This document shows positions 498 to 48,455 of a DNA stretch of 64,000 nucleotides, one piece after another (the first letter of the stretch is position 1; each line of letters begins with the position of its first letter). Under the pieces are notes generated by a model, which ran no database searches, was not told the DNA's origin, and saw nothing but the letters and a program-made list of their open reading frames with translations. Source of the stretch: Arion vulgaris (Eukaryota > Mollusca > Gastropoda > Stylommatophora > Arionidae); the NCBI GenBank assembly GCA_020796225.1, contig CM036767.1, positions 22,326,927 to 22,390,926 on the forward strand. The letters run 5' to 3'. The translations under genes were made by a program, and so were the position numbers.

Positions 498-3400
498 GAA
501 ATAAAAAAAAGGATGAAAGCAAAAAAAAAGAAAGGATGAAAGCAAACAAAAGAAATGATGAAAGTAAACAAAAGAAAAAAGGATGAAATTAAACAAAAGA
601 AAGAAAGGATGAAAGTAAACAAAAGAAAGAAAAGATGAAAGCAAACAAATGAAAGAAAGGATGAAATTAAACAAAAGAAAAAAGGATGAAAGTAAACAAA
701 AGAAAGAAAGGATGAAAACAAACAAAAGAAAGAAAGGAGGAAAGCAAACAAAAGAAAGAAAGGATGAAAGCAAACAAATGAAAGAAAGGATGAAATTAAA
801 CAAAAGAAAGAAAGGAGTGAAAGTAAACAAAAGAAAGAAAGGATGAAAGCAAAAAAAGAAAGAAAGGATGAAAGAAACAAAAGAAAAAGGATGAAATAAA
901 CAAAGAGAAAGTGATGAAAGCAAACAAAAGAAAGAAAGATGAAAAAACAAAAGAAAGAAAGGATGAAAGCAAACAAAGAAAGAAAAGATGAAAGTAAACA
1001 AAAGAAAAAAGGATGAAATAAACAAAGAAAGAAAGATGAAATTAAACAAAAGAAAGAAATGATGAAGTAAAAAAAATGAAAGAAAGATGAAAGTAAACAA
1101 AAAAAGAAAGAGATGAAAGTAAACAAAAGAAAGGATGAAAAAACAAAAGAAAGAAATGAGAAATTAAACAAAGAAGAAATGATGAAAGTAAACAAAGAAA
1201 GAATGGAAGTAAACAAAAAGAAAGAATGGAAAGTAAATAAAGAAAGAAGGGAAATGAAACAAAAAAAGAATGAAGTAAACAAAAGAAAAAAATGAAGTAA
1301 ACAAAAGAATGAAGAATAAAAGAAAGAATGGAAGTAAATAAAAGAAAGAATGAAAGTAAATAAAAGAAAGAATGGAAGTAAATAAAGAAAGAATGGAAGT
1401 AAATAAAAGAAAGAAAAGAATGAAGTGAAATAAAAGAAAGAATGAAGTAAAAAGAAAAATGGAAGTAAAAAAAGAAAGAATGAAGTAAATAAAAGAAAGA
1501 ATGGAAGTAAATAAAAGAAAGAATGGAAGTAAAAAAAAGAAAGAATGGAAGTAAATAAAAGAAAGAATGAAGTAAATAAAAGAAAGAATGGAAGAATAAA
1601 AGAAAGAATGAAGTAAATAAAAAAAAGAATGAAGTAATAAGAAAGAATGGAAGTAAATAAAAGAAAGAATTGAAGTAAATAAAAGAAAGAATGGAAGTAA
1701 ATAAAAGAAAGAATGGAAGTAAATAAAAGAAAGAATAAGAAAATAAAAGAAAGAATGGAAGTAAATAAAAGAAAGAATGGAAGTAAATAAAAGAAAGAAG
1801 GGAAGTAAATAAAGAAAGAATGAAGAAATAAAAGAAAGAATGGAAGTAATAAAAGAAGAATGAAGTAAATAAAGAAAGAATGGAAGTAAATAAAAGAAAG
1901 AATGAAGAAATAAAAGAAAGAATGGAAGAATAAAGAAAGAAGAAAGTAAATAAAAGAAAGAATGAAGTAAATAAAAGAAAGAATGGAAGTAAATAAAAAA
2001 GAAAGAAGTAAATAAAAGAAAAAATGAAGTAAATAAAAGAAAGAATGAAAGTAAATAAAGAAAGAATGAAGTAAATAAAAGAAAGAATGAAGTAAATAAA
2101 AAGAAATGGAAGTAAATAAAAGAAAGAATGAAAGTAAATAAAAGAAAGAATGAAAGTAAATAAAAGAAAGAATGAAGAAAAAAGAAAGAATGAAAGTAAA
2201 TAAAGAAAGAATGAAAGTAAATAAAAGAAAGAATGAAGTAAATAAAGAAAGAATGGAAGTAAATAAAAGAAAGAATGAAAGTAAATAAAGAAAGAATGAA
2301 AGTAAATAAAAGAAAGAATGAAGTAAAAAAAGAAAGAAAGGAAGTAAATAAAAGAAAGAATGGAAGTAAATAAAAGAAAGAATTGAAGTAAATAAAAGAA
2401 AGAATGGAAGTAAATAAAAGAAAGAATGGAAGTAAATAAAAGAAAGAATTGAAGTAAATAAAAGAAAGAATGGAAGTAAATAAAAGAAAGAATGAAAGTA
2501 AACAAAAGAAAGAATGGAAGTAAATAAAAGAAAGAATGAAAAAGAAAGTAAATAAAAAAGAAGAAGTAAAAAAGAAAGAATGAAAGTAAATAAAAGAAAG
2601 AATGAAGTAAATAAAGAAAGAATGGAAGTAAATAAAGAAAGAATGAGTAATAAAGAAAGAATGAAAATAAAAGAAAGAATGGAAGTAAATAAAGAAAGAA
2701 TGAAAGTAAATAAAAGAAGATGAATAAGAAAGATGAAGTAAAAGAAAGAATGGAGTAAATAAAAGAAAGAATGAATAAAAAAAAGTAAAAGAAATGAAAG
2801 TAAAAAGAAAGAGAAGTAAATAAAAGAAAGAATGGAAAGTAAATAAAAGAAGAATGAAGAATGAAAGAAAAGATGAAACAAAGAAAGAATGGAAGTAAAA
2901 TAAAAAGAAAGAAGATAGTAAATAAAGAAAGAATGAAAGTAAATAAAAGAAAGAATGGAAGTAAATAAAAGAAAGAATAAAAGTAAATAAAAGAAAGAAT
3001 GAATAAATAAAAGAAAAAGAATGGAAAGAAATAAAAGAAAGAATGGAAGTAAATAAAAGAAAGAATGGAAGTAAATAAAAGAAAGAATGGAAGTAAATAA
3101 AAGAAAGAATGGAAGTAAATAAAGAAAGAATGAAGTAAACAAAAGAAAGAATGGAAGTAAATAAAAGAAAGAATGGAAGAAATAAAGAAAGATGAAGTAA
3201 ATAAAGAAAGAATGAAAGTAAATAAAAGAAAAATGGAAGTAAATAAAGAAAGAATGAAAGTAAATAAAAGAAAGAATGGAAGTAAACAAAAGAAAGAAGG
3301 GAAGTAAATAAAAAAGAAAGAATGGAAGTAAATAAAAGAAAGAATGAAAGTAAATAAAAAAGAAAAGAAAGAAAGAATGAATAAATAAAAGAAAGAATGG

Positions 3401-6400
3401 AAGTAAATAAAAGAAAGAATGGAAGTAAATAAAAGAAAGAATGGAAGTAAATAAAAGAAAGAAGGGAAAGTAAATAAAAGAAAAAAATGGAAGTAAATAA
3501 AAGAAAGAATGGAAGTAAATAAAAAGAAGAAGAAATAAAAGAAGAATGGAAGTAAATAAAGAAAGAATGGAAGTAAATAAAAGAAAGAATGGGAAGTAAA
3601 TAAAAGAAAGATGAGTAAAATGAAAGAAAGAATGAAAGTAAATAAAAGAAAGAATGGAAGTAAATAAAAGAAAGAATTGAAGTAAATAAAAGAAAGAATG
3701 GAAGTAAATAAAAGAAAGAATGGAAGTAAATGAAAGAAAGAATGGAAGTAAATAAAAGAAAGAATGGAAGTAAATAAAGAAAGAATGAAGTAAATAAAGA
3801 AAGAATGGAAGTAAATAAAAGAAAGAATGGAAGTAAATAAAAGAAAGAATGGAAGTAAATAAAAGAAAGAATAAGTAAATAAAGAAAGAATGGAAGTAAT
3901 AAAAGAAAGAATGAAAAGTAAATAAAGAAAGAATGGAAGTAAATAAAAGAAAGAATGAAAGTAAATAAAAGAAAGAATGAAAGTAAATAAAGAAAGAATG
4001 AAGTAAATAAAAGAAAGAATTGAAGTAAATAAAAGAAAGAATGGAAGTAAATAAAAGAAAGAATGGAAGTAAATAAAAGAAAGAATGAAAGTAAATAAAA
4101 GAAAGAATGGAAGTAAATAAAAGAACGAATGAAAGTAAATAAAAGAAAGAATGGAAGTAAATAAAAGAAAGAATGGAAGTAAATAAAAGAAAGAATGGAA
4201 GTAAATAAAAGAAAGAATGAAAGTAAATAAAAGAAAGAATGAAAGTAAATAAAAGAAAGAATGAAAGTAAACAAAAGAAAGAAAGGGCGAACGTAAATAA
4301 AAGAAAGAATGGAAGTAAATAAAAGAAAGAATGAAAGTAAATAAAAGAAAGAATGAAGTAAAAAAGAAAGAATGAAAGTAAATAAAAGAAAGAATGAAAG
4401 TAAATAAAAGAAAGAATGAAAGTAAATAAAAGAAAGAATGAAAGTAAACAAAAGAAAGAAAGGGCAGAAGTAAACAAAAGAAAGAATGGAAGTAAATAAA
4501 AGAAAGAATGAAAGTAAATAAAGAAAGAATGAGTAAATGAAAGAAAGAATGAAGTAAATAAAAGAAAGAATGAAAGTAAATAAAAGAAAGAATGGAAGTA
4601 AATAAAAGAAAGAATGGAAGTAAATAAAAGAAAGAATGGAAGTAAATTAAAGAAAGAATGGAAGTAAATAAAAGAAAGAATGGAAGTAAATAAAAGAAAG
4701 AATGAAAGTAAATAAAAGAAAGAATGGAAGTAAATAAAAGAAAGAATGGAAGTAAATAAAAGAAAGAATGGAAGTAAATTAAAGAAAGAATGAAAGTAAA
4801 TAAAAGAAAGAATGGAAGTAAATGAAAGAAAGAATGAAAGTAAATAAAAGAAAGAATGGAAGTAAATTAAAGAAAGAATGAAAGTAAATAAAAGAAAGAA
4901 TGGAAGTAAATGAAAGAAAGAATGGAAGTAAATAAAAGAAAGAATGGAAGTAAATAAAAGAAAGAATGGAAGTAAATAAAAGAAAGAATGAAAGTAAATA
5001 AAAGAAAGAATGAAAGTAAATAAAAGAAAGAATGGAAGTAAATAAAAGAAAGAATAAAAGTAAATAAAAGAAAGAATAAAAGTGAATAAAAGAAAGAATG
5101 GAAGTCAATAAAAGAAAGAATGGAAGTAAACAAAAGAAAGAATGGAAGTAAATAAAAGAAAGAATGGAAGTAAATAAAAGAAAGAATAAAAGTAAATAAA
5201 AGAAAGAATGGAAGTAAATAAAAGAAAGAATGAAAGTAAACAAAAGAAAGAATGGAAGTAAATAAAAGAAAGAATGGAAGAAAATAAAAGAAAGAATGAA
5301 AGTAAATAAAAGAAAGAATGAAACTAAATAAAAGAAAGAATGGAAGTAAATAAAAGAAAGAATGAAAGTAAATAAAAGAAAGAATGGAAGTAAACAAAAG
5401 AAAGAATGGAAGTAAATAAAAGAAATAATGAAAGTAAATAAAAAAAAAATGGAAGTAAATAAAAGAAAGAATGAAAGTAAATAAAAGAATGAAAGGAAGT
5501 AAATAAAAGAAAGAATGGAAGTAAACAAAAGAAAGAATGGAAGTAAACAAAAGAAAGAATGGAAGTAAATAAAAGAAAGAATGGAAGTAAATAAAAGAAA
5601 GAATGAAAGTAAATAACAGAAAGAAAGGAAGTAAATAAAAGAAAGAATGGAAGTAAATAAAAGAAAGAATGGAAGTAAATAAAAGAAAGAATGGAAGTAA
5701 ATAAAGAAAGAATGAAGTAAATAAAAGAAAGAATGGAAGAAAATAAAATAAAGAATGGAAGTAAATAAAAGAAAAAATGGAAGTAAATGAAAGAAAGAAT
5801 GGAAGTAAATAAAAGAAATAATGAAAGTAAATAAAAAAAAAATAGAAGTAAATAAAAGAAAGAATGAAAGTAAACAAAAGAATGAAAGGAAGTAAATAAA
5901 AGAAAGAATGGAAGTAAACAAAAGAAAGAATGGAAGTAAACAAAAGAAAGAATGGAAGTAAATAAAAGAAAGAATGGAAGTAAATAAAAGAAAGAATGAA
6001 AGTAAATAAAAGAAAGAAAGGAAGTAAATAAAAGAAAGAATGGAAGTAAATTAAAGAAAGAATGGAAGTAAATAAAAGAAAGAATGGAAGTAAATAAAAG
6101 AAAGAATGGAAGTAAATAAAAGAAAGAATGGAAGTAAATAAAATAAAGAATGGAAGTAAATAAAAGAAAAAATGGAAGTAAATGAAAGAAAGAATGGAAG
6201 TAAATAAAAGAAAGAATGGAAGTAAATAAAAGAAAGACTGGAAGTAAATGAAAGAAAGAATGAAAGTAAATAAAAGAAAGAATGGAAGTAATAAAAGAAA
6301 AAATGGAAGTAAATAAAAGAAAGAATGGAAGTAAATAAAAGAAAGAATGGAAGAAATGAAAGAAATAATGGAAGTAAATAAAGAAAGAATGGAAGTAAAT

Positions 6401-9400
6401 AAAAGAAAGAATGGAAGTAAATAAAAGAAAGAATTGAAGTAAATAAAAGAAAGAATGGAAGTAAATAAAAGAAAGAATGGAAGTAAATAAAAGAAAGAAT
6501 AAAAGTAAATAATAGAAAGAATGGAAGTAAATAAAAGAAAGAATAAAAGTAAATAATAGAAAGAATGGAAGTAAATAAAAGAAAGAATGAAAGTAAATAA
6601 AAGAAAGAATGGAAGTAAATAAAAGAAAGAATTGAAGTAAATAAAAGAAAGAATGGAAGTAAATTAAAGAAAGAATGGAAGTAAATAAAAGAAAGAATGG
6701 AAGTAAATAAAAAGAAAGAATGAAGTAAATAAAGAAAGAATGAAAGTAAATAAAAGAAAGAATGGAAGTAAATAAAAGAAAGAATGGAAGTAAATAAAAG
6801 AAAGAATGGAAGTAAATAAAAGAAAGAATGAAAGTAAATAAAAGAAAGAATGAAAGTAAATGAAAGAAAGAATGGAAGTAAACAAAAGAAAGAATGGAAG
6901 TAAATAAAAGAAAGAATGGAAGTAAATAAAAAAAAGAATGAAAGTAAATAAAAGAAAGAATGAAAGTAAATAAAAGAAAGAATGGAAGTAAATAAAAGAA
7001 AGAATAAAAGTTAATAAAAGAAAGAATAAAGTGAATAAAAGAAAGAATGGAAGTAAATAAAAGAAAGAATGGAAGTAAAAAAAAGAAAGAATGGAAGTAA
7101 ATAAAAGAAAGAATGGAAGTAAATAAAAGAAAGAATAAAAGTAAATAAAAGAAAGAATGGAAGTAAATAAAAGAAAGAATGAAAGTAAACAAAAGAAAGA
7201 ATGGAAGTAAATAAAAGAAAGAATGGAAGAAAATAAAAGAAAGAATGAAAGTAAATAAAAGAAAGAATGAAACTAAATAAAAGAAAGAATGGAAGTAAAT
7301 AAAAGAAAGAATGAAAGTAAATAAAAGAAAGAATGGAAGTAAACAAAAGAAAGAATGGAAGTAAATAAAAGAAATAATGAAAGTAAATAAAAAAAAAATG
7401 GAAGTAAATAAAAGAAAGAATGAAAGTAAATAAAAGAATGAAAGGAAGTAAATAAAAGAAAGAATGGAAGTAAACAAAAGAAAGAATGGAAGTAAACAAA
7501 AGAAAGAATGGAAGTAAATAAAAGAAAGAATGGAAGTAAATAAAAGAAAGAATGAAAGTAAATAAAAGAAAGAAAGGAAGTAAATAAAAGAAAGAATGGA
7601 AGTAAATGAAAGAAAGAATGGAAGTAAATAAAAGAAAGAATGGAAGTAAATAAAAGAAAGAATGGAAGTAAAAAAAGAAAGAATGAAGTAAATAAAATAA
7701 AGAATGGAAGTAAATAAAAGAAAAATGGAAGTAAATGAAAGAAAGAATGAAGTAAATAAAAGAAAGAATGGAAGTAAATAAAAGAAAGACTGGAAGTAAA
7801 TGAAAGAAAGAATGAAAGTAAATAAAAGAAAGAATGGAAGTAAATAAAAGAAAGAATGGAAGTAAATAAAAGAAAGAATGGAAGTAAATAAAAGAAAGAA
7901 TGGAAGTAAATGAAAGAAATAATGGAAGTAAATAAAAGAAAGAATGGAAGTAAATAAAAGAAAGAATGGAAGTAAATAAAAGAAAGAATGAAAGTAAATA
8001 AAAGAAAGAATGGAAGTAAATAAAAGAAAGAATGAAAGTAAATAAAGAAAGAATGGAAGTAAATAAAAGAAAGAATGGAAGTAAATAAAAGAAAGAATGG
8101 AAGTAAATAAAAGAAAGAATGAAAGTAAATAAAAGAAAGAATGAAAGTAAATAAAAGAAAGAATGAAAGTAAACAAAAGAAAGAAAGGGCGAATGTAAAT
8201 AAAAGAAAGAATGGAAGTAAATAAAAGAAAGAATGAAAGTAAATAAAAGAAAGAATGGAAGTAAATAAAAGAAAGAATGAAAGTAAATAAAAGAAAGAAT
8301 GAAAGTAAATAAAAGAAAGAATGAAAGTAAATAAAAGAAAGAATGAAAGTAAACAAAAGAAAGAAAGGGCGAACGTAAACAAAAGAAAGAATGGAAGTAA
8401 ATAAAAGAAAGAATGAAAGTAAATAAAAGAAAGAATGGAAGTAAATGAAAGAAAGAATGGAAGTAAATAAAAGAAAGAATGAAAGTAAATAAAAGAAAGA
8501 ATGGAAGTAAATAAAAGAAAGAATGGAAGTAAATAAAAGAAAGAATGGAAGTAAATAAAAGAAAGAATGGAAGTAAATAAAAGAAAGAATGGAAGTAAAT
8601 AAAAGAAAGAATGAAAGTAAATAAAGGAAAGAATGGAAGTAAATAAAAGAAAGAATGGAAGTAAATAAAAGAAAGAATGGAAGTAAATAAAAGAAAGAAT
8701 GAAAGTAAATAAAAGAAAGAATGGAAGTAAATGAAAGAAAGAATGAAAGTAAATAAAAGAAAGAATGGAAGTAAATAAAAGAAAGAATGAAAGTAAATAA
8801 AAGAAAGAATGGAAGTAAATGAAAGAAAGAATGGAAGTAAACAAAAGAAAGAATGGAAGTAAATAAAAGAAAGAATGGAAGTAAATAAAAGAAAGAATGA
8901 AAGTAAATAAAAGAAAGAATGAAAGTAAATAAAAGAAAGAATGGAAGTAAATAAAAGAAAGAATAAAAGTAAATAAAAGAAAGAATAAAAGTGAATAAAA
9001 GAAAGAATGGAAGTCAATAAAAGAAAGAATGGAAGTAAACAAAAGAAAGAATGGAAGTAAATAAAAGAAAGAATGGAAGTAAATAAAAGAAAGAATAAAA
9101 GTAAATAAAAGAAAGAATGGAAGTAAATAAAAGAAAGAATGAAAGTAAACAAAAGAAAGAATGGAAGTAAATAAAAGAAAGAATGGAAGAAAATAAAAGA
9201 AAGAATGAAAGTAAATAAAAGAAAGAATGAAACTAAATAAAAGAAAGAATGGAAGTAAATAAAAGAAAGAATGAAAGTAAATAAAAGAAAGAATGGAAGT
9301 AAACAAAAGAAAGAATGAAAGTAAATAAAAGAAATAATGAAAGTAAATAAAAAAAAAATGGAAGTAAATAAAAGAAAGAATGAAAGTAAATAAAAGAATG

Positions 9401-10552
9401 AAAGGAAGTAAATAAAAGAAAGAATGGAAGTAAACAAAAGAAAGAATGGAAGTAAACAAAAGAAAGAATGGAAGTAAATAAAAGAAAGAATGGAAGTAAA
9501 TAAAAGAAAGAATGAAAGTAAATAAAAGAAAGAAAGGAAGTAAATAAAAGAAAGAATGGAAGTAAATAAAAGAAAGAATGGAAGTAAATAAAAGAAAGAA
9601 TGGAAGTAAATAAAAGAAAGAATGGAAGTAAATAAAAGAAAGAATGGAAGAAATAAAATAAAGAATGGAAGAAATAAAAGAAAAATGGAAGTAAATGAAA
9701 GAAAGAATGAAGTAAATAAAGAAAGAATGGAAGTAAATAAAAGAAAGACTGGAAGTAAATGAAAGAAAGAATGAAAGTAAATAAAAGAAAGAATGGAAGT
9801 AAATAAAAGAAAGAATGGAAGTAAATAAAAGAAAGAATGAAAGTAAATAAAAGAAAGAATTGAAGTAAATAAAAGAAAGAATGGAAGTAAATAAAAGAAA
9901 GAATGAAAGTAAATAAAAGAAAGACTGAAGTAAATAAAAGAAAGAATGGAAGTAAATAAAAGAAAGAATGAAAGTAAATAAAAGAAAGACTGAAGTAAAT
10001 AAAAGAAAGAATGAAAGTAAATAAAAGAAAGAATGGAAGTAAATAAAAGAAAGAATGGAAGTAAATAAAAGAAAGAATGGAAGTAAATGAAAGAAATAAT
10101 GGAAGTAAATAAAGAAAGAATGGAAGTAAATAAAAGAAAGAATGGAAGTAAATAAAAGAAAGAATGGAAGTAAATAAAAGAAAGAATGGAAGTAAATAAA
10201 AGAAAGAATGGAAGTAAATAAAAGAAAGAATAAAAGTAAATAATAGAAAGAATGGAAGTAAATAAAAGAAAGAATAAAAGTAAATAATAGAAAGAATGGA
10301 AGTAAATAAAAGAAAGAATGAAAGTAAATAAAAGAAAGAATGGAAGTAAATAAAAGAAAGAATTGAAGTAAATAAAAGAAAGAATGAAAGTAAATAAAAG
10401 AAAGAATGGAAGTAAAAAAAAGAAAGAATAAAAGTAAATAAAAGAAAGAATGAAAGTAAATAAAAGAAAGAATGGAATTAAGTAAAAGAAAGAATGGAAG
10501 TAAATAAAAGAAAGAATGGAAGTAAACAAAAGAAAGAATGGAAGTAAATAAA
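498..10552. repeat. 22-bp purine-rich tandem array (about 10 kb)
   Basis: Roughly 450 copies of a 22-bp unit built from gaagtaaataaaag followed by aaagaatg. The left 600 bases use a longer 25-26 bp form (ggatgaaagcaaac with aaaagaaagaaa), grading into the 22-bp form near 1300. Units between 1300 and 4500 are ragged with many 1-3 base indels; from 4500 on they are very uniform. The plus strand is almost all A and G with three T per unit. The minus strand lacks stop codons in the unit, which gives several spurious frames over 1000 residues rich in F, L, Y and S. A higher-order period is present (see findings). Confidence 0.97.
4950..10500. repeat. Higher-order repeat of about 1.95 kb within the 22-bp array
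   Basis: Rare unit variants recur at fixed spacing. The variant gaaactaaata occurs near 5321, 7270 and 9230, and the variant gaaaggaagt after taaaagaat occurs near 5491, 7440 and 9400; both pairs of gaps are 1949 and 1960 bases. The variant agaaagactg occurs near 6231, 7783 and 9742. The first gap there is short by about 397 bases, explained by an extra tandem copy of about 394 bases in the first period, where the gaaaggaagt variant recurs near 5885. Boundaries of the three periods are approximate. Confidence 0.85.
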
Positions 10553-26693: not shown

Positions 26694-27448
26694 TCATGTC
26701 CTGCTACAAAGGCGACGAAGGCGCAAGAGCTGCGAGAATGGCAAAGAGTCACGACAAACCGGAGGATGGGAAGAAGCATAAAGGAGAAAACTATATGCAT
26801 CAGTAGGCTTGTAATATACTGATGTAGTGATAGTGGATAGGTATATAGTGATAGTAATGTCAAGAAAGTTGACACAAGAAGATGAAATGTGAGAGATAAA
26901 ACGAATAGCAGCGTTGAAAACATTAATGAAATTTATGAAGCGTGACAAATCAGCTTCAGGCATATCAGTAATGCCAATACAGTCATCAATGTATCTGTGA
27001 TAGACAGACGGAAGTGGGTCATCATATGTACTCCATACTAGATGTTCAAGATAACCCATGAACAGACAAGCATAACTAGGTTCCATTTTAGTACCCATGG
27101 CACCCATGATCTGCTCAAAGAATTGGTCATTGAACTGAAAGGAGTTGAGAGTGAGAAATAGTTCCGCAAGACGAAGGAGAGCAGAAGTTGACACAAGTGA
27201 ATTAGTTCTCCTATTGAGAAAGAACTGAAGATCTTTATGGCCGTCAGGATGAGGTATAGAGGTGTACAATGAGCACACATCAAGGAGGAAGAGACGGTAG
27301 GTCCTCTCGGGTAGCAACTCAAATGGAAGAAAAACAGACAAAGCGTGGTTTGCATCTTTCAAAAATGAAGGGAGTGTGGTGACAATGGGATTAAGGATAC
27401 TGTCAAGGAATTCGGAAATGTGTTCCGTAGGACAAGAGCAAGCAGAAA
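26694..27448 (-). pseudogene. Penelope-like reverse transcriptase, 5'-truncated
   Basis: Encodes the palm of a Penelope-like RT, which copies element RNA at target DNA ends. From the N-side: SCPTEHISEFLDSILNPI, SFLKDANHAL, LLDVCSLYTSIPH (first Asp motif), MGTKMEPSYACLFMGYLE, the catalytic YHRYIDD, then NFLDITI and SVYYKPTDAYSFLLY. The open stretch is 222 codons from the first Met, but the frame enters from upstream without a start. The N-terminal part is missing, and the downstream nuclease on this strand is in broken frames (25990-26515). Confidence 0.88.
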
Positions 27449-27463
27449 CTTGAAATTACTATC

Positions 27464-28375
27464 TTGACATTACTATCACCATATACCTATCCACTTTCAC
27501 TACATCAGTATATTACAAGCCTACTGATGCACATAGTTTTCTCTTTATACTTCTTCCATCCTCCGGCTTGTCGTGATTCTTTGCCTTCTTCAGCTCTTGC
27601 GCTTCATCGCCTTTGTAGCAAAGAAGATGATTTTCTGGATAGAGCTCGCGAGATGTTTGATTTCTTCCGCAGGCGCTATACCCGGAGAAGGTGCTTGTAT
27701 CTGCCATGCATTGAGTTCAGAAAATCACTCGCCAGCAGGCCCTTACCAGTCAGCATAGGACTACTAACTCTGACAAGAGTAAAAGTTATCTTAACTTTCC
27801 ACCCCCATAGATCACTGGTGAAAAATGTGTTATTCCGACATCTGTCTATCCTTAAGTCAGATCCTGAGACCCGTTCAGTCTTTCCCAACTATCCTTTTGT
27901 GGTTTACAGACGGGACAGAAGTCTTCAGGATATGTTGGTACACAGTCGCCTAAAGTCCAATATCCAGAGTCATTTTGGCACTGCCCAGTGTGGCCGTCGG
28001 CGTTGCAAACGTGTGCTTATTATACAGACGCGTACTGTATCTTTTCCTTTAGCCTCTTTTGTTATTAAAGATGGTTTCACATGCGAGTCCCGTAATCTTA
28101 TCTATGCCATTATATGTAAGCGGTGTAACAAGGCTTATCTGGGCGAGACAGGCAAGAAACTCAGTGACCGATTCGCCCAACACTTGCGCGACATAAGCCA
28201 ATGCTCTGTGACCCATGTAGTCACCCATTTAATTGATACTGGTCATTTAGGAGCACACGATGTCCAGGTCATAGCCATCCGATCATGTTCCACGGATGAT
28301 CGCAGTCGATTTGATCTGGAGAATAGGTTGATTTCGTTGTATGGTACCTTGCGACCACGTGGCCTCAACGTATAA
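27464..28375 (+). pseudogene. Penelope-like RT connector plus GIY-YIG endonuclease
   Basis: A 303-codon open stretch covering the RT C-terminus and the full nuclease. Visible in order are FFRRRYTRRRCLYLPCIEF, SLVKNVLFRHLSILKSDPE, the cysteine cluster CGRRRC, then IYAIICKRCNKAYLGETG, SDRF, AQHLRDI and the catalytic-Glu segment LENRLISLYGTLRPRG, ending at a stop at 28375. GIY-YIG nucleases of this family nick target DNA for reverse transcription. The first 60 codons are a frame mixture, and the RT catalytic YIDD part is absent, so this copy alone cannot move. Confidence 0.9.
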
Positions 28376-29296: not shown

Positions 29297-29635
29297 TAAC
29301 GTCTTTAGCTCAAGAGGAGAGAATAATAATAGACAAGTAAACGCGTCTTAGCAGTGACTGGAGAATGCCTGAACATGTCTTTAACAGCGAAAAGGTTTTT
29401 AAAGTTAATTATTTTGTCAAAAACGTATGTAAAAAGGCAGAATTTCCGCTATTTGCTAAAAACTGGCAACGCGCTGCCGACCCCTGATCTGGGATTTTCT
29501 AGGGTTTACCTATGAATGTCACGGGCACACTGGTGCGCCTGGGCACACCCTTTGAGAACCATTGGCTTATATGGCTGTCCTCTTCTCCTGTTTCCATTTA
29601 CTTTGTGTATCAATACCTGTTGTGTGTGGGGGTAG
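29297..29635. other. Unassigned spacer
   Basis: No gene or repeat visible. Its right part may be the degraded downstream side of the minus-strand LINE RT whose frame becomes readable at about 29640. Confidence 0.35.
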
Positions 29636-29639
29636 GGGT

Positions 29640-31520
29640 ATTTGTTTCACAATATGGTGTTAGACATTCTTCGACCCAGGTCTTGTGTGGTCAGTATCAC
29701 GCCAGTAGACTATATTTCCCAGTATTTCTCTAGTACCTAGTTTTCAGCATATATATTGAGTAGGTAAGGTAACAGAATGCCGCCCTGTCTAACTATATAT
29801 TGAGTAGGTACGGTAACAGAATGCCGCCCTGTCTAACTATATATTGAGTAGGTACGGTAACAGAATGCCGCCCTGTCTAACTATATATTGAGTAGGTACG
29901 GTAACAGAATGCCGCCCTGTCTAACTATATATTGTGTAGGTACGGTAACAGAATGCCGCCCTGTCTAACTATATATTGAGTAGGTACGGTAATAGAATGC
30001 CGCCCTGTCTAACTATATATTGAGTAGGTACGGTAATAGAATGCCGCCCTGTCTAACTATATATTGAGCAGGTAAGGTAATAGAATGCCGCCCTGTCTAA
30101 CTATATATTGAGCAGGTACAGTAACATAATGCCGCCCTGTCTAACTATATATTGAGCAGGTAAGGTAACAGAATGCCACCCTGTCTAACTATATATTGAG
30201 CAGGTACAGTAACATAATGCCGCCCTGTCTAACTATATATTGAGCAGGTAAGGTAACATAATGCCGCCCTGTCTAACTATATATTGAGTAGGTAAGGTAA
30301 CAGAATGCCGCCCTGTCTAACTATATATTGAGTAGGTAAGGTAACAGAATGCCGCCCTGTCTAACTATATATTGAGTAGGTACGGTAACAGAATGCCACC
30401 CTGTCTAACTATATATTAGTAGATATAATGCCGTCTGTCTATATATTTTTAGGTACGGTGTAGAATGCTCGCCGTCTGTTGTAATATTGAGCAGGTAAGT
30501 AATTAGAATACCGCTGTCTAACTATATATTGAGCAGGTACAGTAACATAATGCCGCCCTGTCTAACTATATATTGAGTAGGTAAGGTAACAGAATGCCGC
30601 CCTGTCTAACTATATATTGAGCAGGTACAGTAACATAATGCCGCCCTGTCTAACTATATATTGAGCAGGTAAGGTAACATAATGCCGCCCTGTCTAACTA
30701 TATATTGAGTAGGTAAGGTAACAGAATGCCGCCCTGTCTAACTATATATTGAGCAGGTACAGTAACATAATGCCGCCCTGTCTAACTATATATTGAGTAG
30801 GTAAGGTAACAGAATGCCGCCCTGTCTAACTATATATTGAGTAGGTAAGGTAACAGAATGCCGCCCTGTCTAACTATATATTGAGTAGGTAAGGTAACAG
30901 AATGTCGCCCTGTCTAACTATATATTGAGTAGGTAAGGTAACAGAATGCCGCCCTGTCTAACTATATATTGAGCAGGTACAGTAACATAATGCCGCCCTG
31001 TCTAACTATATATTGAGAGGTAGGTAACAGAATGTCGCCCTGTCTAACTATATATTGAGTAGGTACGGTAACAGAATGCCGCCCTGTCTAACTATATATT
31101 GAGTAGGTACGGTAATAGAATGCCGCCCTGTCTAACTATATATTGAGTAGGTACGGTAATAAAATGCCGCCCTGTCTAACTATATATTGAGTAGGTACGG
31201 TAACAGAATGCCGCCCTGTCTAACTATATATTGAGTAGGTAAGGTAACAGAATGCCGCCCTGTCTAACTATATATTGAGTAGGTAAGGTAACAGAATGCC
31301 GCACTGTCTAACTATATATTGAGGTACGACAAATGCCACCTTGTCTAACTCCTTGGCCTATGTATGCACAAACCAGATGTTGTTCCTCTTCTATTCTCAC
31401 ATGTCTTTATATCGTATGTTTACAATATGCACTACTTGAGGGAAGAACCCTATCTCTGACATTATGTTCACGCAATCGTGTGGTATTTCACTCAATCAAA
31501 GGCCTTTGAATAATTAACAA
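29640..31520 (-). mobile_element. LINE RT fragment split by an array of its own motif
   Basis: On the minus strand 31340-31500 reads PHDCVNIMSEIGFFPQVV, HIVNIRYKDM and a decayed IGQGVRQGG. The other side of the array, 29640-29745, continues NIYAEN and then LEKYWEI and TTQDLGRRMSNTIL. These are the RT palm segments before and after the RQGG-L-P-L-NIY-E motif. The array between them is made of that motif. The catalytic YADD segment is not visible downstream. Confidence 0.82.
29740..31330. repeat. 44-bp tandem array derived from the RT RQGG motif
   Basis: About 36 copies of a 44-bp unit: tatatattgagtaggtacgg, taacagaatgccgcc, ctgtctaac. The minus strand of each unit reads VRQGGILLPYLLNIY, the conserved RT palm motif normally written RQG(C/G)-LSP-LFN-Y. 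Because 44 is not a multiple of 3, the frame is lost between units. Variation is mainly taggtacgg, taggtaagg, caggtaagg and caggtacag, arranged in alternating blocks. A decayed patch lies at 30410-30530. Confidence 0.95.
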
Positions 31521-31570
31521 AGCAAGTAAATAGGTTTATGTTATACTCTCTACAAAACAATACTTTCACT

Positions 31571-31597
31571 CATATATATATATATATATATATATAT
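31571..31597. repeat. AT dinucleotide microsatellite
   Basis: An uninterrupted run of alternating A and T of about 27 bases. Confidence 0.95.
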
Positions 31598-31599
31598 GA

Positions 31600-32200
31600 C
31601 GTGCTTTGGAGAGAACAGTAATGGAGAGCAGTGTACTTGGAAAATGAGGAAGGGATGACAAAGAAAATGGTAGCAACAGAACATTAAAAAAACCTTGAAT
31701 ATTGTATTTGAAGAAGTGGAAGATCTTACTATATACACAAGTTTTCAGTGGGAGCGCATTCTGCAGAGGTCATGTTGCATGATGACATATACATAGAAAC
31801 ATATATTATGTGCAGCTAAAAAATACCTCACAGTTTTAGACACATTTTTGAAAAGAATATCATCAAACACGTTAAAAACAAAATATTCATTACAATTTGC
31901 TAGTTGCTGAAAACTAAATCTCACATAAAACAAAATAAGAACATGCAAGCAAAAATGAATAGGAAACTCAATCTCAACATGTTCTTGCAGAAACAAGTTG
32001 CTAGATTGTGCAGATAAGGAAACAGCATTAAATTGCAGGATTAGTAACTAGAAAACCTTGGTGCACAGCCCAAACCTATTGTTAGAGGATGGAAAGGAAT
32101 ATTAATGGACTGGTAGATAGCCTGATCTAATCCTGGTCTGTCATCATTTATAGACAGTAAGAGAACATTGTTCTTCTTAATGAAATATAGATCTTCCTGT
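31600..32200. other. Unassigned AT-rich spacer
   Basis: Short minus-strand frames of 62-83 codons occur but lack motifs and paralogues in the window. No repeat structure is visible. Confidence 0.4.
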
Positions 32201-33954: not shown

Positions 33955-34640
33955 TAAACATTGCGCAATGGAATGTCGAAGGTCTCCATCACAAAAAGCA
34001 AGCACTCGCAATAAGACTTGCAAAAGAAAAGGTCGATGTAGTTTGCATACAAGAGACGCACTTAAATGCCCAACACAGATTCTGGATCAGAGATTATCAA
34101 ACCTTCAGATTAGATCGATAGGGGCACAAAGGCGGAGTCCTCACCCTAGCACGAGACGGCATTCCAGCAAAACAAATAAATGTGACAACAGGAGGCACCG
34201 GTGCATCAGAGATCATAGGCGTCCTCATTACATGTGATGAAATACAGATTCTTCTGTACAACCTATACTGCCCAGGTGACATCTCTCTATCACCTGAGGC
34301 GATGACTATAAATGATACAGCATGCATGGTGGTCGGTGATTTCAACAGCCATTCAGAAAGGTGGGGCTACCTCGAAACGAACAATAGAGGCGTAGAAGTG
34401 GAAGACTGGGAGATAGAGAACCACCTGTTCCTTACCAATGCCCCAGACGATCCGCCAACCTTCTACTTGAGAAGATGGCATGCGACTAGCACCCCAGATC
34501 TGGTCTTTGCAACGAGCGACCTCTCCACAAAACAGTACGTACGGTCACTAAGCAACTGGGAGATAGTGACAATAGGCCCGTCAAACTGCAAGTAGATCTC
34601 CACTTCGTACCCATGCCAAAAATGTGGTTGCCCCGGTGGA
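33955..34640 (+). pseudogene. LINE endonuclease domain (APE type), broken
   Basis: Readable segments in shifting frames: AQWNVEGLHHKKQALAIRLA, DVVCIQETHLN, GHKGGVLTLARDGIP, LLYNLYCPGD, VVGDFNSHSERWGY and TSTPDLVFATSDL. The N (WN), E (QETHL) and D-N (GDFN-H) residues correspond to the catalytic set of APE endonucleases that nick target DNA. A segment just before the GDFN block appears shortened, and frames shift at about 34115 and 34595. Confidence 0.85.
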
Positions 34641-37884: not shown

Positions 37885-40800
37885 TCTCTCTTTCTTGAAC
37901 CCTTTACTTCCCACTTCAATGCCTGCTTTGGTATTCTTGAAACCTTTACTTCCCACTTCAATGCCTGCTTTGATATTCTTGAACCCTTTACTTCCCACTT
38001 CAATGCCTGCTTTGGTATTCTTGAACCCTTTACTTCCCACTTCAATGCCTGCTTTGGTATTCTTGAACCCTTTACTTCCCACTTCAATGCCTGCTTTGGT
38101 ATTCTTGAACCCTTTACTTCCCACTTCAATGCCTGCTTTAGTATTCTTGAACCCTTTACTTCCCACTTCAATGCCTGCTTTGATATTCTTGAACCCTTTA
38201 CTTCCCACTTCAATGCCTGCTTTGATATTCTTGAACCCTTTACTTTCCACTTCAATGCCTGCTTTGGTATTCTTGAACCCTTTACTTCCCACTTCAATGC
38301 CTGCTTTGATATTCTTGAACCCTTTACTTCCCACTTCAATGCCTGCTTGGTATTCTTGAACCCTTTACTTCCCACTTCAATGCCTGCTTTGGTATTCTTG
38401 AACCCTTTACTTCCCACTTCAATGCCTGCTTTTGTATTCTTGAACCCTTTACTTCCCACTTCAATGCCTGCTTTGATATTCTTGAACCCTTTACTTCCCA
38501 CTTCAATACCTGCTTTGATATTCTTGAACCCTTTACTTCCCACTTCAATGCCTGCTTTGATATTCTTGAACCCTTTACTTCCCACTTCAATGCCTGCTTT
38601 GATATTCTTGAACCCTTTACTTCCCACTTCAATGCCTGCTTTTGTATTCTTGAACCCTTTACTTCCCACTTCAATGCCTGCTTTGATATTCTTGAACCCT
38701 TTACTTTCCACTTCAATGCCTGCTTTGGTATTCTTGAACCCTTTACTTCCCACTTCAATGCCTGCTTTGGTATTCTTGAACCCTTTACTTCCCACTTCAA
38801 TGCCTGCTTTTGTATTCTTGAACCCTTTACTTCCCACTTCAATGCCTGCTTTGATATTCTTGAACCCTTTACTTCCCACTTCAATGCCTGCTTTGATATT
38901 CTTGAACCCTTTACTTCCCACTTCAATGCCTGCTTTGATATTCTTGAACCCTTTACTTCCCACTTCAATGCCTGCTTTGATATTCTTGAACCCTTACTTC
39001 CACTTCAATGCCTGTTTGATTTCTTGAACCCTTTACTTCCCACTTCAATGCCTGCTTTTGTATTCTTGAACCCTTTACTTTCCACTTCAATGCCTGCTTT
39101 GGTATTCTTGAACCCTTTACTTCCCACTTCAATGCCTGCTTTGATATTCTTGAACCCTTTACTTTCCACTTCAATGCCTGCTTTGGTATTCTTGAACCCT
39201 TTACTTCCACTTCAATGCCTGCTTTGTATTCTTGAACCCTTTACTTTCCACTTCAATGCCTGCTTTGGTATTCTTGAACCCTTTACTTCCCACTTCAATG
39301 CCTGCTTTTGTATTCTTGAACCCTTTACTTCCCACTTCAATGCCTGCTTTTGTATTCTTGAACCCTTTACTTCCCACTTCAATGCCTGCTTTGATATTCT
39401 TGAACCCTTTACTTTCCACTTCAATGCCTGCTTTGATATTCTTGAACCCTTTACTTTCCACTTCAATGCCTGCTTTGGTATTCTTGAACCCTTTACTTTC
39501 CACTTCAATGCCTGCTTTGGTATTCTTGAACCCTTTACTTCCCACTTCAATGCCTGCTTTGGTATTCTTGAACCCTTTACTTCCCACTTCAATGCCTGCT
39601 TTGATATTCTTGAACCCTTTACTTCCCACTTCAATGCCTGCTTTGATATTCTTGAACCCTTTACTTCCCACTTCAATGCCTGCTTTGATATTCTTGAACC
39701 CTTTACTTCCCACTTCAATGCCTGCTTTGATATTCTTGAACCCTTTACTTCCCACTTCAATGCCTGCTTTGATATTCTTGAACCCTTTACTTCCCACTTC
39801 AATGCCTGCTTTGATATTCTTGAACCCTTTACTTCCCACTTCAATGCCTGCTTTGATATTCTTGAACCCTTTACTTCCCACTTCAATGCCTGCTTTGATA
39901 TTCTTGAACCCTTTACTTCCCACTTCAATGCCTGCTTTGATATTCTTGAACCCTTTACTTCCCACTTCAATGCCTGCTTTGATATTCTTGAACCCTTTAC
40001 TTCCCACTTCAATGCCTGCTTTGATATTCTTGAACCCTTTACTTTCCACTTCAATGCCTGCTTTGATATTCTTGAACCCTTTACTTCCCACTTCAATGCC
40101 TGCTTTGATATTCTTGAACCCTTTACTTCCCACTTCAATGCCTGCTTTGGTATTCTTGAACCCTTTACTTCCCACTTCAATGCCTGCTTTGGTATTCTTG
40201 AACCCTTTACTTCCCACTTCAATGCCTGCTTTGGTATTCTTGAACCCTTTACTTCCCCCTTCAATGCCTGCTTTGGTATTCTTGAACCCTTTACTTCCCA
40301 CTTCAATGCCTGCTTTGGTATTCTTGAACCCTTTACTTCCCACTTCAATGCCTGCTTTGATATTCTTGAACCCTTTACTTCCCACTTCAATGCCTGCTTT
40401 GGTATTCTTGAACCCTTTACTTCCCACTTCAATGCCTGCTTTGGTATTCTTGAAACCTTTACTTCCCACTTCAATGCCTGCTTTGATATTCTTGAACCCT
40501 TTACTTTCCACTTCAATGCCTGCTTTGGTATTCTTGAACCCTTTACTTCCCACTTCAATGCCTGCTTTGGTATTCTTGAACCCTTTACTTTCCACTTCAA
40601 TGCCTGCTTTGGTATTCTTGAACCCTTTACTTTCCACTTCAATGCCTGCTTTGATATTCTTGAACCCTTTACTTCCCACTTCAATGCCTGCTTTGATATT
40701 CTTGAAACCTTTACTTCCCACTTCAATGCCTGCTTTGATATTCTTGAACCCTTTACTTCCCACTTCAATGCCTGCTTTGATATTCTTGAACCCTTTACTT

Positions 40801-43800
40801 TCCACTTCAATGCCTGCTTTGATATTCTTGAACCCTTTACTTCCCACTTCAATGCCTGCTTTGATATTCTTGAACCCTTTACTTCCCACTTCAATGCCTG
40901 CTTTGATATTCTTGAAACCTTTACTTCCCACTTCAATGCCTGCTTTGATATTCTTGAACCCTTTACTTTCCACTTCAATGCCTGCTTTGATATTCTTGAA
41001 CCCTTTACTTCCCACTTCAATGCCTGCTTTGATATTCTTGAAACCTTTACTTCCCACTTCAATGCCTGCTTTGATATTCTTGAACCTTTACTTCCCACTT
41101 CAATGCCTGCTTGATATTCTTGAACCCTTACTTCCACTTCAATCCGCTTTGTATTCTGAACCCTTTATTCATTCAATGCCTGCTTTGATATTCTTGAACC
41201 CTTTACTTCCCCCTTCAATGCCTGCTTTGGTATTCTTGAACCCTTTACTTCCCACTTCAATGCCTGCTTTGGTATTCTTGAACCTTACTTCCCACTTCAA
41301 TGCCTGCTTTGTATTCTTGAACCCTTACTTCCCACTTCAATGCCTGCTTTGGTATTCTTGAACCCTTTACTTCCCACTTCAATGCCTGCTTTGGTATTCT
41401 TGAACCCTTTATTCCACTTCAATGCCCTGCCTTTGATATTCTTGAACCCTTTACTTTCCACTTCAATGCCTGCTTTGGTATTCTTGAACCCTTTACTTTC
41501 CACTTCAATGCCTGCTTTGGTATTCTTGAACCCTTTACTTCCCACTTCAATGCCTGCTTTTGTATTCTTGAACCCTTTACTTCCCACTTCAATGCCTGCT
41601 TTTGTATTCTTGAACCCTTTACTTCCCACTTCAATGCCTGCTTTGGTATTCTTGAACCCTTTACTTCCACTTCAATGCCTGCTTTGATATTCTTGAACCT
41701 TTACTTCCACTTCAATGCCTGCTTTGATATTCTTGAACCCTTTACTTCCCACTTCAATGCCTGCTTTGATATTCTTGAACCCTTTACTTCCACTTCAATG
41801 CCTGCTTTGGTATTCTTGAACCTTTATTCCACTTCAATGCCTGCTTTTGTATTCTTGAACCCTTTACTTCCCACTTCAATGCCTGCTTTTGTATTCTTGA
41901 ACCCTTTACTTCCCACTTCAATGCCTGCTTTGGTATTCTTGAACCCTTTACTTTCCACTTCAATGCCTGCTTTGATATTCTTGAACCCTTTACTTCCCAC
42001 TTCAATGCCTGCTTTGATATTCTTGAACCCTTTACTTCCCACTTCAATGCCTGCTTTGGTATTCTTGAACCCTTTACTTTCCACTTCAATGCCTGCTTTG
42101 GTATTCTTGAACCCTTTACTTCCCACTTCAATGCCTGCTTTGGTATTCTTGAACCCTTTACTTCCCACTTCAATGCCTGCTTTTGTATTCTTGAACCCTT
42201 TACTTTCCACTTCAATGCCTGCTTTGATATTCTTGAACCCTTTACTTTCCACTTCAATGCCTGCTTTGATATTCTTGAACCCTTTACTTTCCACTTCAAT
42301 GCCTGCTTTGATATTCTTGAACCCTTTACTTCCCACTTCAATGCCTGCTTTGATATTCTTGAACCCTTTACTTCCCACTTCAATGCCTGCTTTGATATTC
42401 TTGAACCCTTTACTTCCCACTTCAATGCCTGCTTTGATATTCTTGAACCCTTTACTTCCCACTTCAATGCCTGCTTTGGTATTCTTGAACCCTTTACTTC
42501 CCACTTCAATGCCTGCTTTGGTATTCTTGAACCCTTTACTTCCCACTTCAATGCCTGCTTTGGTTTCTTGAACCCTTTACTTCCCACTTCAATGCCTGCT
42601 TTGGTATTCTTGAACCCTTTACTTCCCACTTCAATGCCTGCTTTGGTATTCTTGAACCCTTTACTTCCCACTTCAATGCCTGCTTTGGTATTCTTGAACC
42701 CTTTACTTCCCACTTCAATGTCTGCTTTGATATTCTTGAACCCTTACTTCCACTTCAATGCCTGCTTTGGTATTCTTGAACCCTTTACTTCCACTTCAAT
42801 GCCTGCTTTGGTATTCTTGAACCTTTACTTCCACTTCAATGCCTGCTTTGATATTCTTGAACCCTTTACTTCCCACTTCAATGCCTGCTTTGGTATTCTT
42901 GAACCCTTTACTTCCCACTTCAATGCCTGCTTTGGTATTCTTGAACCCTTTACTTCCCACTTCAATGCTGCTTTGATATTCTTGAACCCTTTATTTTCCA
43001 CTTCAATGCCTGCTTTGTATTCTTGAACCTTTACTTCCCACTTCAATGCCTGTTTTGGGTATTCTTGAACTCTTTACTTCCACTTCAATGCCTGCTTTGA
43101 TATTCTTGAACCCTTTACTTTCCACTTCAATGCCTGCTTTGATATTCTTGAACCCTTTACTTCCCACTTCAATGCCTGCTTTGGTATTCTTGAACCCTTT
43201 ACTTCCCACTTCAATGCCTGCTTTGATATTCTTGAACCCTTTACTTTCCACTTCAATGCCTGCTTTGATATTCTTGAACCCTTTACTTCCACTTCAATGC
43301 CTGCTTTGGTATTCTTGAACCTTTACTTCCCACTTCAATGCCTGCTTTGTATTCTTGAACCCTTACTTCCCACTTCAATGCCTGCTTTGGTATTCTTGAA
43401 CCCTTTACTTTCCACTTCAATGCCTGCTTTGATATTCTTGAACCCTTTACTTCCCACTTCAATGCCTGCTTTTGTATTCTTGAACCCTTTACTTCCCACT
43501 TCAATGCCTGCTTTGATATTCTTGAACCCTTTACTTCCCACTTCAATGCCTGCTTTGATATTCTTGAACCCTTTACTTCCACTTCAATGCCTGCTTTGTA
43601 TTCTTGAACCCTTTACTTTCCACTTCAATGCCTGCTTTGGTATTCTTGAACCCTTTACTTCCCACTTCAATGCCTGCTTTGATATTCTTGAACCCTTTAC
43701 TTCCCACTTCAATGCCTGCTTTAGTATTCTTGAACCCTTTACTTCCCACTTCAATACCTGCTTTGATATTCTTGAACCCTTTACTTCCCACTTCAATGCC

Positions 43801-45192
43801 TGCTTTGATATTCTTGAACCCTTTACTTCCACTTCAATGCCTGCTTTGAGTATTCTTGAACCCTTTACTTCCACTTCAATGCTGCTTTGTATTCTTGAAC
43901 CCTTTACTTCCACTTCAATGCCTGCTTTGAGTATTCTTGAACCTTTACTTCCACTTCAATGCCTGCTTTAATATTCTTGAACCTTTACTTCCCACTTCAA
44001 TGCCTGCTTTGGTATTCTTGAAACCTTTACTTCCCACTTCAATGCCTGCTTTGGTATTCTTGAACCCTTTACTTCCCACTTCAATGTCTGCTTGTATTCT
44101 TGAACCCTTTACTTTCCACTTCAATGCCTGCTTTGGTATTCTTGAACCCTTTACTTCCCACTTCAATGCCTGCTTTGATATTCTTGAACCCTTTACTTCC
44201 CACTTCAATGCCTGCTTTGATATTCTTGAACTCCTTTACTTCCCACTTCAATGCCTGCTTTGATATTCTTGAAACCTTTACTTCCCACTTCAATGCCTGC
44301 TTTGATATTCTTGAACTCTTTACTTCCCACTTCAATGCCTGCTTTGATATTCTTGAACCCTTTACTTCCCACTTCAATGCCTGCTTTTGTATTCTTGAAC
44401 CCTTTACTTCCCACTTCAATGCCTGCTTTGATATTCTTGAACCCTTTACTTCCCACTTCAATGCCTGCTTTGGTATTCTTGAACCCTTTACTTCCCACTT
44501 CAATGCCTGCTTTGATATTCTTGAACCCTTTACTTTCCACTTCAATGCCTGCTTTGATATTCTTGAACCCTTTACTTCCCACTTCAATGCCTGCTTTGAT
44601 ATTCTTGAACCCTTTACTTCCCACTTCAATGCCTGCTTTGGTATTCTTGAACCCTTTACTTCCCACTTCAATGCTTGCTTTGGTATTCTTGAACCCTTTA
44701 CTTCCCACTTCAATGCCTGCTTTGGTATTCTTGAACCCTTTACTTCCCACTTCAATGCCTGCTTTGATATTCTTGAACTCTTTACTTCCCACTTCAATGC
44801 CTGCTTTGGTATTCTTGAACCCTTTACTTCCCACTTTAATGCCTGCTTTGGTATTCTTGAACCCTTTACTTCCCACTTCAATGTCTGCTTTGATATTCTT
44901 GAACCCTTTACTTTCCACTTCAATGCCTGCTTTGGTATTCTTGAACCCTTTACTTTCCACTTCAATGCCTGCTTTGATATTCTTGAACCCTTTACTTGCC
45001 ACTTCAATGCCTGCTTTGATATTCTTGAACTCTTTACTTCCCACTTCAATGCCTGCTTTGATATTCTTGAACTCTTTACTTCCCACTTCAATGCCTGCTT
45101 TGATATTCTTGAACTCTTTACTTCCCACTTCAATGCCTGCTTTGATATTCTTGAACCCTTTACTTCCCACTTCAATGCCTGCTTTGGTATTC
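37885..45192. repeat. 42-bp tandem array (about 7.3 kb)
   Basis: About 174 copies of a 42-bp unit: ttcaatgcctgctttg, gtattcttgaaccc, tttacttcccac. Variation is largely limited to positions g/a (tggtat, tgatat, ttgtat), c/t (tcccac, tttccac) and c/a (gaaccc, gaaacc). Since 42 is 3 x 14, frames persist: the minus strand reads GSKGFKNIKAGIEV or KWEVKGSRISKQAL, and the plus strand FTSHFNACFDILEP or NPLLPTSMPALIFL, with stretches up to 709 codons. Indel-rich patches at about 41080-41420, 42740-43090 and 43830-44000 separate very regular blocks. Confidence 0.97.
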
Positions 45193-45450
45193 TTTGACCA
45201 TTTCTTGTTACACAATATGCCCAGCATATCTCCATCTTCTCTTTTTTTATAACAGTTGTTACTAGAGGTTGACCAGACATTTCTCTGTTTTAATCAATTC
45301 TCCTGAATTCAACACATACATTTAAACAGCCTGTACTCACATTTTTCACATTTTATTACTTCTCTAAAATGTTATTAAGCTCTTCATTTATTCTTATTAA
45401 TTCTTCAACTGGACTGAAAGTATGTGTATAGATAGTCATTTGTTGCACTA
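45193..45450. other. Unassigned spacer
   Basis: AT-rich, no frame or repeat. The last array unit ends in tattctttgaccatttc, and unique sequence follows. Confidence 0.4.
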
Positions 45451-47160: not shown

Positions 47161-47513
47161 CGGTAGACAGAGGATTTCTGTAATAGAGGCAATGGTTACA
47201 GTCATGGACCAGTATGGTCACTGCCAGGAAGGTAGACAGAGGATCTCTGTAATAGAGGCAATGTCAACAGTCATGGACCAGTATGGTCACTGCCAGGAAG
47301 GTAGACAGAGGATCTCTGTAATAGAGACAATGGCAACAGTCATGGACCAGTATGGTCACTGCCAGGAAGGTAGACAGAGGATTTCTGTAATAGAGACAAT
47401 GGCAACAGTCATGGACCAGTATGGTCACTGCCAGGAAGGTAGACAGAGGATTTCTGTAATAGAGGCAATGGCAACAGTCATGGGCCAGTATGGTCACTGC
47501 CAGGATGGAAAGC
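47161..47513. repeat. 69-bp tandem array, in frame
   Basis: Four full and two partial copies of a 69-bp unit: gtagacagaggatttctg, taatagaggcaatggcaac, agtcatggaccagtatgg, tcactgccaggaag. As 69 is 3 x 23, a plus-strand frame (47192-47545) repeats MDQYGHCQEGRQRISVIE. I do not recognise this peptide. It abuts the LINE RT fragment at 47560. Confidence 0.92.
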
Positions 47514-47559: not shown

Positions 47560-48455
47560 AATATGGAATACAACATAATCGAATATATACAGAAAACATC
47601 ATGGGGAATGTTACTGAAGATAGCGGCAAAAAACAATACGATCCTTTTATAATCGGAGGGAGAGAAATACCTGAACTACGATACGCTGACGATACAGTGT
47701 TACTGTCGACATCACAAAAAGGGATGAGAAATTATTTGGAGAAGTGAAAGACAAAAGCGAAAAACAAAATCTATATCTCAATGTGGCAAAAACAAAAATA
47801 ATGACAACAGATAAAACGAACCTGACAAATGATATTTTTATTAATGGAGAAAGTAGAAAATGTGAACAGTTTTGAATATCTTGGTTCACTACTAACAACA
47901 GTTGGAAATGTGATGAAGGAAATTAAAGAAGAACAAACATGGCTTTACACAAAATTAAACAACTAAAACAGTATGGAACAGAACTGATAAGAAAACAAAG
48001 ATCAAAATACTAAGAGCATGCATATTCACAGTGGTAACGTATGGGTGTGAAGCATGGACATTTAATAAAGCAGTGGAAAAACATATAAGTGCTTTTGAAT
48101 ATAAGTGTTACAGAAGAGTCCTTCGTATATCTTGGACAGAGAAAAGAACAAATAGATCTATCCAGAAAGAACTCAAAATCAAAGAAAACTGGCTGATGCT
48201 ACAAATAAGAAAGAGAAAATTGAGATATTTTGGACATATAAAAAGACATGAAGGGCTAGAGAGGACCATCATGGAAGGAGGTATACCGGCAAAGAGATGA
48301 AGAGGAAGACCACGGAGATGATGGATTCAGGATGTGATTGATGGTTTGAACATGACAGCTGCAGAGGCAGGACATCTGGCCTATGCCAGAGAGAAATTCA
48401 GAGGACTGTTGGGGTGGCAAAGTTCTGCTCAGGACAAGCTATTTGATGATGATGA
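47560..48455 (+). mobile_element. LINE fragment, RT palm to 3' end
   Basis: Readable in broken frames: NIYTENIMGNVTEDSG, GGREIPELRYADDTVLLST (catalytic YADD), LNVAKTKIMTTDKTN, NSFEYLGSLLTT, then an open stretch (48031-48300) with VTYGCEAWTFNKAVEKHI, YRRVLRISWTEKRTNRSI, RKRKLRYFGHIKRHEGLER. RGRPRRRWIQDVIDGLNM follows after a stop, and the copy ends in a GATGAT tail. This is the best-preserved RT C-terminus of its family in the window, but at least four frameshifts remain. Confidence 0.88.

Follow-up and report, generated by a model that had tools for sequence, protein, structure and literature searches.

A 44-bp minisatellite of Arion vulgaris that probably arose in place from a reverse transcriptase segment of a LINE copy

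A window of 64,000 nucleotides of the Arion vulgaris genome, part of contig C15 in our genome search, holds a tandem array of 44-bp units which very probably (we put it at roughly 87%) arose in place from one reverse transcriptase (RT) segment of a decayed, truncated LINE copy and expanded later. This reading draws on the identity of the unit, on the register of the LINE upstream and its 10-bp continuation downstream, on fetched sister copies without the tandem, on a junction pattern that revealed no other array, and on parallel arrays in sister copies (Table 1). We propose that a 44-bp RT piece gave rise to a head-to-tail copy of itself where it stood, its borders having practically no homology (1 bp); the probable mechanism is a staggered break that was then repaired, or a template switch. 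Slippage or unequal exchange in later rounds may then have brought the array to about 37 units, and the LINE would have undergone loss or rearrangement 10 bp outside the array, the order of these 3'-side events being presumed. Other copies of the family would have been struck by like events at other segments.

Table 1. Positions of the array, its borders and the arrays of sister LINE copies (window positions, or L015-based coordinates marked q).
Feature	Position	Strand	Basis
44-bp tandem array, about 37 units	window 29750..31349	minus	TRF and unit table
First unit, 37 bp, internal deletions, in register with upstream LINE flank	31313..31349	minus	unit table
Degraded 113-bp block, about 2-3 units, many indels	30410..30522	minus	unit table
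LINE RT before array (KAFD...GQG), degenerate, continuous with unit 1	31350..31554	minus	genome copies
Last 10 bp of LINE after array (TGCTGAAAAC)	29740..29749	minus	alignment
No LINE similarity found	29575..29739	.	shuffle test against 8 copies; no match below 1e-3
Part of unrelated dispersed repeat	29500..29573	.	genome search
34 bp x 12 (L094)	near q138-196		TRF, HSP chains
37 bp x 10 (L085)	near q138-196		TRF, HSP chains
82 bp x 2 (L012, L098)	q231-320		TRF, HSP chains
45 bp x 2 (L075), x 4 (L085), x at least 50 (L028 with L099)	over YADD motif
69 bp x 15 (L077)	over YADD motif
34 bp x 2 (L090, L040), about 64 (L096 with L100), about 77 or more (L098 with L101)	q679-714
49 bp x 8 (L076)	q912-969

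The initial annotation had described a 36-copy array at 29740-31330. The 44-bp array is real, and its extent had to be corrected to that of Table 1. TRF gave a period of 44 with 36.2 copies at 29750-31323, and the copy number is the assembly's value. Splitting the minus strand at every GTTAGACA yielded 35 pieces, 32 of them exactly 44 bp long; one unit measured 42 bp. The first unit is shorter than the others through internal deletions and has no cut end. The idea that it keeps an ancestral base (TGTC) was dropped, since a 3-bp deletion explains the sequence equally well. The 32 units of 44 bp comprise 12 distinct variants with a mean pairwise divergence of 5.2%, and adjacent units resembled each other only slightly more than under random order, 133 of 2000 shuffles giving values as low. 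The block at 30410-30522 is noisy while the rest of the array is clean, and may hold either old units or assembly noise. On the minus strand a typical unit reads VRQGGILLPYLLNI, the final Y occurring in the last unit only, and then TAG at the unit junction. With a stop at the unit junctions, the array as a whole is non-coding, and we propose no function for it.

Genome comparison settled the identity of the unit as an RT segment of a LINE, as had been suggested for the minus strand, because the genome copies hold it in RT sequence. A search of the 1.52-Gb genome (3,227 contigs) with five units returned 10 rows in the array itself; a further 24 rows fell at 23 places elsewhere, each of them matching the unit over about 45 bp at 87-91%. 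Twenty of these 23 places were fetched, and all 20 hold the segment within RT sequence, more or less decayed, in the form GIGQGVRQGCILSPYLFNIYAENIMRN. A search for the LINE without the array had been proposed beforehand as a check; none of the 20 fetched copies has a 44-bp tandem, and in one of them, L012, the segment is present twice through the 82-bp duplication. Sister copy L015 contains an open stretch of 215 residues that matches RVT_1 at E=1.9e-18, with GVRQGCILSPYLFNIY at the place corresponding to the unit, and gave ten matches to solved structures (4.9e-11 to 6.8e-8), R2 and LINE-1 ORF2 among them. By way of this copy the family, assessed from its RT and 3' part, has both the RVT_1 domain and the YADD motif of a LINE RT. 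The broken local reading at the array reached RVT_1 only at E=0.078 and R2 structures at E=0.64-0.84; a protein search with the broken peptide gave no match.

At the upstream border, the RT segment anticipated before the array was found. Its 205 bp are in register with 39 other copies at 76-81% among the matches listed (best 40 of 179 candidates scored), hence with at least 39 copies, and the fetched loci gave 65 matches to this flank below 1e-3. The LINE similarity has a sharp edge at 31554, close to an (AT)13 run (31572-31597). The RT segment that the initial annotation had placed after the array, at 29640-29745, did not hold up: past the array only TGCTGAAAAC continues the LINE in the alignment, then the similarity ends, and the rest of that stretch had no match below 1e-3. 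A downstream resemblance to RT (AEN.VLEKYWEI, KVNGNRRRGQP) was convincing by eye and was rejected, as the DNA compared with LINE copies stayed at shuffle level. When searched against the window's second LINE copy and the loci of 65 others, the 165 bp between this point and the dispersed repeat gave no match below 1e-3, and their shuffle z-scores against 8 copies were about -2 to 1. In the controls for this search, 31600-31800 gave one match (L059) and 20 shuffles gave none. Part of the stretch (29686-29742) has one weak match, in L021, where it falls outside the LINE match (E=0.002; 8.8e-5 with a longer query). The adjoining dispersed repeat recurs at 39 other places at 85-96% among the matches listed (best 40 of 746 candidates scored). 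The element continues over 205 bp before the array and over only 10 bp after it, so that the downstream register rests on 10 bases.

Such a birthplace had been described as rarely visible this clearly, a view that the sister copies do not support. Three LINE queries and one unrelated query (the dispersed repeat) led to 79 distinct places, 65 of them with a LINE of the family; 61 of the 65 copies have at least 300 bp of LINE, and four of the 65 adjoined the dispersed repeat (29500-29573 query). In eleven of these 65 other distinct copies, RT segments other than the window's have been duplicated or arrayed in place, with unit lengths of 34-82 bp and unit numbers between 2 and about 77 or more (TRF, HSP chains). 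This is no genome-wide rate, because the array-bearing fraction varies between queries: before removal of duplicates it was 2 of 20 loci for the unit query, 1 of 19 for the upstream-flank query (self omitted) and 8 of 30 for the third LINE query, which shares sequence with the 45- and 69-bp units and is perhaps biased towards them. The three large copy counts (L028, L096, L098) are the array span divided by the unit length. A diverged twelfth case, at L071, has 41 bp x 19 in a neighbouring copy, at the place matching q679-714; this copy belongs to the same diverged subfamily as the second LINE copy of the window at 47578-48450.

Fifteen arrays were found in all, including those of the window and of L071, and 11 of them have LINE in register on both sides. 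Two others, that of L028 and the 34-bp one of L098, extend on one side beyond the sequence fetched, and in two more the LINE flank of one side is very short, namely 10 bp in the window and about 4 bp for the 37-bp array of L085. Among the copies spanning each of the five sites in turn, 30 of 34, 35 of 44, 41 of 52, 40 of 46 and 40 of 44 show no length change above 8 bp; the remaining ones have deletions, other insertions, and arrays. In copies L034, L039, L041, L013 and L014 the YADD region or its vicinity is interrupted by 156-348 bp of inserted sequence; the insertion points are not all the same, and the inserted sequences differ from each other. On different contigs, L028, L085 and L075 have the same 45-bp borders without microhomology, with at least 50, 4 and 2 units. 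These common borders may have been inherited from a source element or made by a repeated break; the tree of copies, being star-like, does not decide between inheritance and repeated duplication.

The borders of the nine unit types may tell how the duplications started. Direct repeats there measure 0 bp for the 45- and 69-bp units, 1 bp for the window's 44-bp unit and the 34-bp unit of L094, and 2 bp for the 49-bp unit. They reach 5 bp for the 41-bp unit, 6 bp for the 34-bp unit at q679-714, 7 bp for the 82-bp unit and 8 bp for the 37-bp unit within L085. The 7 bp of the 82-bp border are those of array-free copies, L098 having only 4 bp, and 7 of the 8 bp of the 37-bp border are present in array-free copies. 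Direct repeats of 5-8 bp are thus found at the borders of four of the nine unit types, far above the 0.9% of random placements on L015 that reach at least 5 bp (P about 1e-6, a post hoc value computed from border homologies that were read by eye and entered by hand). As an exact pattern, the border repeats are present in array-free copies in 25 of 65 cases for the 34-bp unit at q679-714 and in 18 of 65 for the 82-bp unit. Two kinds of start are thus visible, one between short direct repeats and one with practically none, and the array of the window is of the second kind.

The LINE does not appear to be a special site for such arrays. In the same loci we counted 13 arrays in 53,148 bp of LINE and 43 in 112,103 bp of flanks (with a period of 15 or more and a score of 100 or more), which corresponds to 2.45 and 3.84 per 10 kb. 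In these counts, two LINE rows are parts of one L098 array, L075 lies below the score limit, and the 43 include the array of L071, which proved to lie in LINE and can be transferred without reversing the order. A LINE-specific hotspot, which we had considered, thus found no support in the density test. Since arrays are not enriched in the LINE relative to its flanks, the array-forming process looks general in the genome, with the LINE acting as a readable tracer. We would give about even odds to a wider proposition, that an unusually active process of duplication and subsequent expansion makes minisatellites from ordinary sequence almost anywhere, the LINE copies being replicate test strips. 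If so, births could be read to the base, from the same ancestor and a known before-state, at stages ranging from 2 units to about 77 or more; reuse of some of the break points would have occurred between direct repeats of 6-7 bp, and of one (that of the 45-bp unit, in three copies) with none. Within the window, 48.7% of the bases (1-64000) lie in tandem arrays of period 10 or more. It has 26 distinct arrays of period 15 or more, the largest being one of 22 bp at 1028-10552 and one of 42 bp at 37892-45194.

Could the array have come from elsewhere? Insertion of a pre-existing satellite with a 44-bp unit into the LINE is extremely improbable in our judgment. Although the end of LINE similarity 10 bp beyond the array would agree with it, the unit is LINE sequence that continues both borders, and the 20 fetched sister LINEs are without the tandem. 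A junction pattern, allowed up to 2 mismatches, had 56 matches in the genome, 34 in the array and 22 as scattered singles, against 23 matches for a reversed control pattern. At up to 2 junction mismatches, a limit that more diverged arrays would escape, the genome thus holds no second 44-bp array of the unit, and the same monomer was not seen arrayed at several loci as in a satellite family. As no other array of the unit was found, no satellite family offers itself as the source, which argues for growth in place. This had already been proposed, and it is borne out by the other copies, in which the segment adjoins the LINE flanks; of the two results named beforehand as speaking against it, a segment standing apart from these flanks and an unrelated satellite family with the unit that predates the LINE, neither turned up (for the latter, no 44-bp array elsewhere at up to 2 junction mismatches). 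An assembly artefact, a single unit falsely expanded, could be suspected from the noisy 113-bp block. We consider it hardly likely, given the distinct variants among the units and the similar arrays in other copies.

A last alternative, unlikely but deserving some weight, is that the duplication was made during reverse transcription (template jumping) at insertion, or in a source element, and that only the expansion came later. The 45-bp borders common to L075, L085 and L028, and the 34-bp borders common to four copies (L040, L090, L096, L098), look as if inherited and would suit it. Against this, the junction pattern found no other two-unit copy of the 44-bp unit, and array density outside the LINE is no lower than within it. 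The copies sharing borders are also ungrouped on the tree, but this tree is poorly supported besides being star-like. Duplication in place after insertion remains our preferred reading. The flank together with one unit is about 85-86% identical to the nearest sister copies, and the array units differ from each other by the 5.2% given above. With head-to-tail units in the range of about 10-100 bp and a homologous element that lacks the tandem in its fetched sister copies, the array has these two features of a TE-derived minisatellite.

TE-derived minisatellites are already known. In humans, according to the portions of Ahmed & Liang 2012 (PMC3389668) drawn on here, 7,276 minisatellites and satellites (23%) derive from TEs, which also speaks against the rarity of visible birthplaces. 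The cases described there resemble ours in that a short unit of a TE copy is repeated, with many two-unit cases and later expansion by local duplication; ours differ in that they belong to one LINE family, with births at different RT segments and a before-state readable from sisters. A model cited in the same portions shares with our array a shorter first unit (37 bp), which here, however, owes its length to internal deletions and not to a cut end. Birth between flanking direct repeats of 5-10 bp was proposed by Haber & Louis 1998, as described in the parts of PMC3389668 and PMC6947457 used here. Four of our nine unit types, with border repeats of 5-8 bp, are in line with this model, whereas the window's array, with 1 bp, does not show the 5-10 bp direct repeats that this signature requires on either side of the ancestral unit. 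A review (PMC6947457) tabulates Alu, LINE-1 and LTR elements as sources of satellites and minisatellites. A 2025 review of satellites from TE segments names the pol region of LTR elements and LINE untranslated regions as monomer sources (PMC12628747). Here too a TE segment becomes a monomer, but at one locus, as a minisatellite and not a satellite family, and from LINE RT coding sequence. In the part of the open-licence literature that was covered, no minisatellite seeded by a LINE RT segment was noticed.

The window's array is an ordinary member of the family series, and the useful part is this readable, family-wide series of births. The origin of the first duplication of a minisatellite is unsettled, known models accounting for about 6% of the human TE-derived cases in the portions of PMC3389668 cited, and in a LINE family with many births, whose ancestral sequences can be read from sister copies, break points, microhomology, unit length and expansion are accessible to direct measurement.

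The window contains some further elements. The second LINE copy (47578-48450, plus strand) is about 70% identical to the main subfamily and 89% to L051; it is 5' truncated just at NIYTEN and keeps YADD and the 3' part. Just before it, at 47162-47505, lies a 69-bp x 5 array, which is not LINE-derived as far as seen; it was considered as derived from an RT motif and not counted, since it precedes the start of LINE similarity. On the minus strand, 26697-27455 is an open stretch resembling RT (RVT_1 at E=0.0045, which does not reach the Pfam cut-off), overlapped in opposite orientation by a GIY-YIG stretch at 27431-28372 on the plus strand (E=1e-6), and the two look like rearranged pieces of a Penelope-like element. 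At 34122-34595 on the plus strand lies part of the endonuclease of a further non-LTR element (Exo_endo_phos_2, E=7.7e-13).
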